Shown one piece after another: positions 35,878 to 38,037 of a stretch of DNA of 40,120 nucleotides. The notes below the pieces were generated by a model, which was not told where the DNA came from, did no database searches, and worked only from the letters and a program-made list of their open reading frames with translations. Location of the stretch: assembly GCA_913065025.1 (NCBI GenBank), contig CAJYAP010000008.1, positions 1-40,120 on the forward strand. The letters are read 5' to 3'. The stretch is from an uncultured Gammaproteobacteria bacterium. GTDB lineage: Bacteria; Pseudomonadota; Gammaproteobacteria; Poriferisulfidales; GCA-002705445. Both the position numbers and the translations under genes were made by a program. How positions within the stretch are numbered: position 1 is the first letter of the stretch; every line of letters starts with the position of its first letter.

Positions 35878-36498
35878 TTAGTTAGGACCATATGCGAATG
35901 GTGATGCTAAACCAACCTTCCCTGTTTGAGAGAAGTTTTTACCATTACCTGTATATGTATTCTTAACAGATTTGAATACTTGAATATCGAATGGAGGTGC
36001 AACTGCTAATGGCATGTTACTAACTTTAACAGCACCGCCATCCATTCCAGTTACAGCAACAAGTTCTTCGTGACCTACATCACCTATTTTGAGAAGTTTC
36101 TTTTCACTAGAATCTTCTATAGTGATTGGAGCTTTCTCAGCACTCATTACTTCTCCTACTAAACTAGCTATTACGGCTAAGTGGCCGCCATGATTTCCGC
36201 TCCACAATTCGCATATTGCATTGAATTGCTCGTCTGAAGCACCGTCATCAACATATAAAGCCAATGACCATCCACCATCAGTTAAATTTCCTGTTTCCCC
36301 TTTACATGGGGCATGTAGCCAAGCAGCAACTTTTCTTCCACTTAAATCTACGCCATCTAAGTTACCCTCATCTATTGTCCATCCCACTTGAGCTTCACAA
36401 AAACCTTCTGTTGGTGGCTCTAAAAATATGCATGGACAAACTAAATCACAATTACATGATTCAAAATAATTACCCTTTACGCTCCAATTGTCTGACAT
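35878..36498 (-). CDS. DUF1326 family protein, Cys-rich N-terminus
   Basis: GNYFESCNCDLVCPCIFLEPPTEGFCEAQVGW. Confidence 0.88.
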   Translation of the reverse strand: MSDNWSVKGNYFESCNCDLVCPCIFLEPPTEGFCEAQVGWTIDEGNLDGVDLSGRKVAAWLHAPCKGETGNLTDGGWSLALYVDDGASDEQFNAICELWSGNHGGHLAVIASLVGEVMSAEKAPITIEDSSEKKLLKIGDVGHEELVAVTGMDGGAVKVSNMPLAVAPPFDIQVFKSVKNTYTGNGKNFSQTGKVGLASPFAYGPN

Positions 36499-36735: not shown

Positions 36736-38037
36736 ATGTCTAGTCAAGAAAATTTAAGCAGAATACAAAAAAATACTGTTATCGCAGGAATACTAGCTGT
36801 TTCATTAGCTGGCTGGTACTTTCTTTTTGCTATGGATGCGAATATGAAAAGTATGAATATGGATATGTCTAGCGGCATGCACATGAATATGAAAATGGAA
36901 CAAAAATCCAAAACAAAAATGGAAATATCTGCATCTGAAATGAAAATATCAAGACCTGTCGTTAGACTTGTGCCTCCAAATTTAGGCATGACAGCTGGCT
37001 ATATTACATTGGAGAATTTATCTAATGAAAATGTAAGCTTAATCGGAGCTTCATCTAAGGACTATAATAGTATTGAGATTCACGAAACTATCATTGATAA
37101 CGACAAAGCAATGATGAATGCCATTGAATCACTTGAAATAAAAGCAAAGAGTAAATCAGAATTAAAGCCTTTAGGATATCATTTAATGTTAATGGGCCCA
37201 TTAAAAGTATTTAAGGAAGATGACAATGTAATAATCAATCTTATCTTTGCTAATGGAAAACAAATGAGTGTTGACTTTACTGTTAAAAGAAATGTTATGG
37301 ATATGGAAATGGATATCGATATGGATCACGGTGATATGGGAATGATGGATGTAGATACCTGGTTACCAAACACATGGTGGATGCCACCAATGCACAATGT
37401 GTGGAGCTCAAATGACTTTTATCAGCTTGTTATAATGTGGTCAATAATGATGGTGGCAATGATGAGCCCAAGTATTATTCCCACAGTTTTAATGTTTGCT
37501 ACTGTCAATAAAGCAAAACAAAAAAATAATTTACAATACACCCCAACCTACATTTTTTACTTTGGCTACCTGATTGCATGGATATTATTTTCAATTGCAA
37601 TTTCTATTATTCAATATCCTCTCCACCAGATCAGTCTAATAAATCCTATGATGGCATCGATGAATAATTATTTCTCTGGTCTAGTTTTAATACTTGCTGG
37701 AATATATCAATTAACTCCTTACAAAAATGCTTGTCTAGATAAATGTCGATCACCTTTATCACTAGTTATGTCTAAATGGAAAGATGGTAATTTTGGTGCA
37801 TTAAGAATGGGGCTTGGACATGGATTTTATTGTGTATTTTGTTGTTGGTTCTTAATGGCTATCTTACTAGTAGCCGGTGTTATGAATATGTACTTTGTAG
37901 TTGCTCTTACGGTTTTTGTTCTTTTAGAAAAACTAATTTTGACTCCAGAATCTTTTGAAAATACTTTTCAGAAATTAATTACAGTAGTTCCAGGCATAGC
38001 CTTTATAATAGGCGGTATATACTATTTATTTAGCTAA
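36736..38037 (+). CDS. DUF2182 integral membrane protein with inserted PCuAC-type copper-chaperone domain
   Basis: DUF2182 hallmarks: MWSIMMVAMMSPSIIPTVLMFA, ACLDKCRSPLS, MGLGHGFYCVFCCWFLMAILLVAGVMN, LLEKL. PCuAC domain between TM1 and TM2: GYITLENLSNE...HETIIDNDKAMM...LKPLGYHLMLMGPL. Confidence 0.85.
   Translation: MSSQENLSRIQKNTVIAGILAVSLAGWYFLFAMDANMKSMNMDMSSGMHMNMKMEQKSKTKMEISASEMKISRPVVRLVPPNLGMTAGYITLENLSNENVSLIGASSKDYNSIEIHETIIDNDKAMMNAIESLEIKAKSKSELKPLGYHLMLMGPLKVFKEDDNVIINLIFANGKQMSVDFTVKRNVMDMEMDIDMDHGDMGMMDVDTWLPNTWWMPPMHNVWSSNDFYQLVIMWSIMMVAMMSPSIIPTVLMFATVNKAKQKNNLQYTPTYIFYFGYLIAWILFSIAISIIQYPLHQISLINPMMASMNNYFSGLVLILAGIYQLTPYKNACLDKCRSPLSLVMSKWKDGNFGALRMGLGHGFYCVFCCWFLMAILLVAGVMNMYFVVALTVFVLLEKLILTPESFENTFQKLITVVPGIAFIIGGIYYLFS

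Follow-up and report, generated by a model that had tools for sequence, protein, structure and literature searches.

A PCuAC domain inserted in the TM1-TM2 loop of a PpoB2 (DUF2182) membrane protein of an uncultured gammaproteobacterium

A PpoB2 (formerly DUF2182) membrane protein of 433 residues, coded in the genome of one uncultured gammaproteobacterium, harbours a complete PCuAC domain between its first two transmembrane helices. We propose that the inserted domain probably collects Cu(I) for the PpoB2 core, for import or for onward delivery to a cuproenzyme. The gene is real and intact, as judged from ORF calling, Pfam signatures and sequence matches to solved structures, and it spans positions 36736-38037 (+) of the window, i.e., the whole 40,120-nucleotide stretch of DNA analysed here. 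Its PCuAC domain (PF04314; residues 71-179, positions 36946-37272, +) is detected with an E value of 1.1e-26 over profile positions 1-109 of 109, and its PpoB2 core (PF09948; residues 232-408, positions 37429-37959, +) with an E value of 1.8e-59 over profile positions 1-174 of 188. This core comprises six further helices, TM2 to TM7, reaching the C-terminus. Both scores are far above the Pfam cut-offs (93.3 vs 29.4 bits for PCuAC and 201.3 vs 28.7 bits, a curated value, for PpoB2), and the sequence also matches the solved PCuAC structures 2k6w (E = 6e-13), 9yah (E = 5e-12) and 1x9l (E = 9e-11). This two-domain architecture had been put forward in a preliminary description, with a profile or structure search for PCuAC set beforehand as the test that could overturn it, and it survives these searches. 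The protein has no match in NCBIfam and no relative in a viral-contig search.

PCuAC proteins bind Cu(I) through an H(M)x10Mx21HxM motif (PMC7558416), and the same motif is given in PMC13006917. In the insert, it reads H116-x10-M127-x21-H149-x-M151 (positions 37081-37188, +), exactly the spacing counted in the preliminary description. The motif has a single occurrence (residues 116-151), and shuffling the loop sequence 20,000 times produced it in 26 cases. With a full-length PF04314 domain and a Cu(I) motif, the insert resembles TTHA1943/Tt-PCuAC, AccA and DR1885. However, the latter are free periplasmic proteins, whereas the domain described here sits within a multi-helix inner-membrane protein and is a domain of the PCuAC type rather than a free chaperone.

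The cytoplasmic N-terminus and TM1 (residues 1-34, positions 36736-36837, +) are conserved in same-genus orthologues that lack the insert. The PCuAC domain is preceded by a Met-rich linker (residues 35-69, positions 36838-36942, +), where the orthologues have a Met-rich spacer of approximately 5 to 60 residues. It is followed by a Met-rich tail (approximately residues 184-207, VMDMEMDIDMDHGDMGMMD; positions 37285-37356, +, delimited with sequence inspection included) that resembles the Met-rich stretch by which PCuAC is followed in the barrel-fused paralogues described below. Altogether the TM1-TM2 loop is 188 residues long, whereas that of 67 homologues has 25 residues on average and never more than 66. 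Met-rich character is usual at this place, as 62 of 68 sequences have at least four Met and His residues in the last 60 positions before the TM2 motif. The 67 homologues have on average 2.1, 3.5 and 4.4 Lys and Arg residues in the N-terminus, loop 2 and loop 4, respectively, compared with only 1.1 and 0.3 in loops 1 and 3. With the positive charges concentrated in the former three segments, loop 1, which bears PCuAC, is predicted to be outside the cytoplasm. The charge pattern of the homologues thus agrees with the periplasmic rather than cytoplasmic location initially proposed for the insert.

The preliminary description regarded DUF2182 as known only as a predicted metal-binding membrane protein, which is outdated. 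Pfam now names the family 'PpoB2, Copper chaperone', and PpoB2 of Marinomonas mediterranea (COG5486) was reported to transfer copper specifically to the tyrosinase PpoB1, as a chaperone for this one tyrosinase and not as a transporter (PMC2855505). Copper is very likely the substrate, as had been suggested, but the suggestion is not new. Since the family takes its name from a copper-supplying protein, the fusion supports a link already made, and the new element is the species-level PCuAC-PpoB2 fusion itself. The window protein and Marinomonas PpoB2 belong to a common membrane family, PF09948. They differ in that no PCuAC has been described for the latter, which serves a tyrosinase (PMC2855505); a search for tyrosinases in the window genome was negative (the genome is 83% complete, and the control set was likewise silent).

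All residues typical of the family, MWxxMMxxMM, CxxxC and HxxxCxxCC, are present in the window protein. TM2 harbours two overlapping MxxxM pairs (M234, W235, M238, M239, M242 and M243; positions 37435-37464, +) that are invariant in 68 of 68 sequences. On the cytoplasmic side of TM4-TM5, C333, C337, H362, C366, C369, C370 and M374 (positions 37732-37857, +) form a second conserved set, in which the Cys residues and M374 are found in 68/68 sequences and H362 in 96%. These invariant MxxxM pairs and the Cys/His cluster suggest a Cu(I) path in the core. CTR1-type Cu(I) importers have paired MxxxM motifs in a helix, a Met-rich outer segment and inner Cys/His residues. The layout of PpoB2 is similar to that of CTR1- and CcoA-type importers in these three features, and an MxxxM/HxxxM motif was described for CcoA (PMC6362234). 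However, the core has no Pfam match to either of them, and a fold search with the whole AlphaFold model returned no PDB match at E <1, leaving the core without a fold match. As no homology was found, we regard the likeness as a functional analogy only. The model of the full protein is good for the core, but pLDDT values are below 50 over most of PCuAC, whose placement is unusable, the insert being present in this one sequence only.

Taken together, these features are consistent with the following scenario. A PCuAC domain with its Met-rich tail would have been inserted into the periplasmic TM1-TM2 loop, itself Met-rich, of a PpoB2-family inner-membrane protein. The tethered domain would capture and hold periplasmic Cu(I), and the Met-rich segments on either side of it would serve to hand the metal to the MxxxM pairs of TM2 and the Cys/His cluster on the cytoplasmic side. 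From there, copper would either enter the cell or move on to a cuproenzyme in the membrane, for which the single aa3 cytochrome c oxidase is the most plausible candidate. The domains, their intact ligands, the topology, the conservation and the recent gain are read from the sequences. Given the unusable placement of PCuAC in the model and the absence of a PDB fold match for the core, this transfer path is a proposal, and we infer copper binding by the protein, the direction of transfer and the client.

Clients were looked for family by family in the same genome. It has a single cluster for an aa3 cytochrome c oxidase, Cox11 included, and COX2 and SCO1 are present. A homologue of SBP56, a copper-dependent methanethiol oxidase (PMC5739008), has two SCO1/SenC-like genes and a gene for a MauG-like di-haem peroxidase on its flanks (G000:C1, L210:4301-8525). 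The aa3 oxidase and the methanethiol oxidase homologue were the only candidates seen, and both are plausible clients of the PpoB2 protein.

In this bacterial family, no free PCuAC was found; apart from the window insert, every PCuAC seen makes up the N-terminal part of a barrel protein of the outer membrane, approximately 470 to 520 residues long. In the window genome, this protein (G000:C2:41856-43247; L002, L211) has a Met-rich linker between PCuAC and a Phenol_MetA_deg-like barrel. Similar fusions are found in 10 of the 11 other genomes of the family (all but G002), whereas the other barrels of this type in the class sample lack PCuAC. The barrel-fused domains are the closest PCuAC relatives of the insert, and a Met-rich stretch directly follows PCuAC in both contexts, but the barrel proteins have a signal peptide and an outer-membrane barrel in place of the PpoB2 core. 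The insert groups with the barrel-fused domains of the family (support 96/89), and we propose that it descends from them or shares a common ancestor with them. Its nearest relative is the barrel-fused PCuAC of G011, from another genus, at 56% identity, compared with 38% for the paralogue in its own genome. This placement is not decisive, as the grouping has a support of 93/81 and alternatives are not rejected (AU p 0.16-0.17). One may naturally suspect that the insertion arose by exchange between stretches rich in Met codons, but the only direct repeats on the two sides of the insert are ATG-rich matches of 15-21 nt, too short to demonstrate it.

A small, exported-looking ORF ending in RAPP was identified upstream of the PCuAC-barrel gene (L048:5387-5788, -; L049:4687-5067, +; also at L160, L163, L165, L167 and L168). 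Its two vicinal Cys residues keep a constant distance from the Arg, which they precede by 45/44 residues, and the ORF has no Pfam match. It resembles the copper-sensing leader CruR/DUF2946 (PMC9426467), with CC where CruR has CXXC. One could imagine a tethered copper uptake relay from the outer to the inner membrane, with the barrel-PCuAC protein behind the CruR-like ORF and PCuAC-PpoB2 as the Cu(I) importer, but we consider such an extended system rather improbable.

The absence of free PCuAC in the family, in which only barrel-fused copies and the window insert were found, could also mean that PpoB2 serves mainly as an anchor. A membrane-anchored PCuAC and SCO1 would then load the CuA centre of oxidase subunit II with no copper crossing the membrane, as PCuAC is known to load CuA (PMC7558416) and COX2, Cox11 and SCO1 are all present in the genome. 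We find this unlikely: the core keeps every invariant Met, Cys and His residue of the family, which a mere anchor need not do, and oxidase assembly does not need the fusion, because the same-genus PpoB2 relatives have PCuAC in the barrel form only.

The insertion looks recent from sequence comparisons. Seven PpoB2 orthologues were found in the genus, and all of them lack PCuAC, with at most a Met-rich spacer of approximately 60 residues at this place. Their cores are up to 90% identical to that of the window protein (75-88% over the matched stretch), and six of the seven have the same TM1, the seventh (G002) being cut by a contig end. In the core tree, the window protein is sister to the insert-less G005 protein (97/97), and both fall in an otherwise insert-less group (100/99), together with G007 and the truncated G002. 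Since the window core is nested in that group, the insert was most simply gained once. Of 156 distinct PpoB2 ORFs from several phyla, 80 of which come from a GTDB genome scan that kept 80 of 369 confirmed stretches, only that of the window has PCuAC. No second case was found in 369 genomes of the class, 399 genomes of the phylum and 181 plasmid records, which are samples rather than a census, and the long PpoB2 frames of other genomes (360-973 residues) have no PCuAC. The preliminary description saw in this architecture a candidate for an under-described system; with one species only and no second case, we rejected the idea of a recurrent fusion system. The closest named relative, a MAG labelled 'uncultured Thiothrix sp. 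AH-287-I11' (L080), has a PpoB2 core identical to that of G001, and this label looks doubtful for a 1.1 Mb genome.

This restricted distribution raises the prospect that a recent domain capture was nearly neutral, PpoB2 working as in the sister species, whose cores are 85-90% identical and without insert. The same-genus orthologues evidently work without PCuAC, and thus the insert may add little. Nevertheless, the domain spans all 109 positions in frame and has its four ligands intact despite only 56% identity to its nearest relative, which suggests that it was kept under constraint, here or in its source. We give near-neutrality a low probability.

The fusion is unreplicated and comes from one probably metagenome-assembled genome in 36 contigs. 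In G011, the PpoB2 gene is cut at a contig end, inside a tandem GDMKMDKS repeat of its Met-rich loop (L047:2-271), and PCuAC was matched only in the barrel-fused protein. Repeats of this kind may interrupt or mislead assemblies precisely where the insert lies. Although incompleteness of the genome and Met-rich repeats that can mislead assemblers leave room for a PCuAC fragment of another genome joined into the gene, such an artefact is highly improbable, as it needs two in-frame misjoins within a few hundred bases, exactly in the Met-rich loop, while the flanking gene order is that of G005 (MsrA, DUF1326, PpoB2 and the next two genes), the insert has GC and GC3 values (0.32/0.26) close to those of the core (0.33/0.28), and there are zero Ns.

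The PpoB2 gene has a divergent neighbour coding for a DUF1326 protein (positions 35878-36498, -; identified with Pfam). In other genomes, a DUF1326 ORF is found at most 1.5 kb from 74 of 80 DUF2182 ORFs, on the same strand in 71 cases, and because they are near-constant neighbours, the two proteins very likely work together. The neighbourhood spans several phyla, including archaeal and actinobacterial records (L080-L159). DUF1326 proteins harbour a conserved CxC-x3-CxC motif. The predicted model is confident (pLDDT 94), and its best PDB matches are acetoacetate decarboxylases (E = 2e-5), with poor superposition (TM 0.37-0.43), so that we dropped a functional assignment from this fold match.

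PpoB2/DUF2182 proteins are widespread, and the literature searched assigns them a single function, that of copper chaperone to one tyrosinase. That a PpoB2 protein is naturally fused to a domain whose Cu(I) chemistry is known represents independent evidence that the PpoB2 family handles periplasmic Cu(I). The fusion also provides a compact construct for telling copper import by PpoB2 apart from copper delivery to enzymes.
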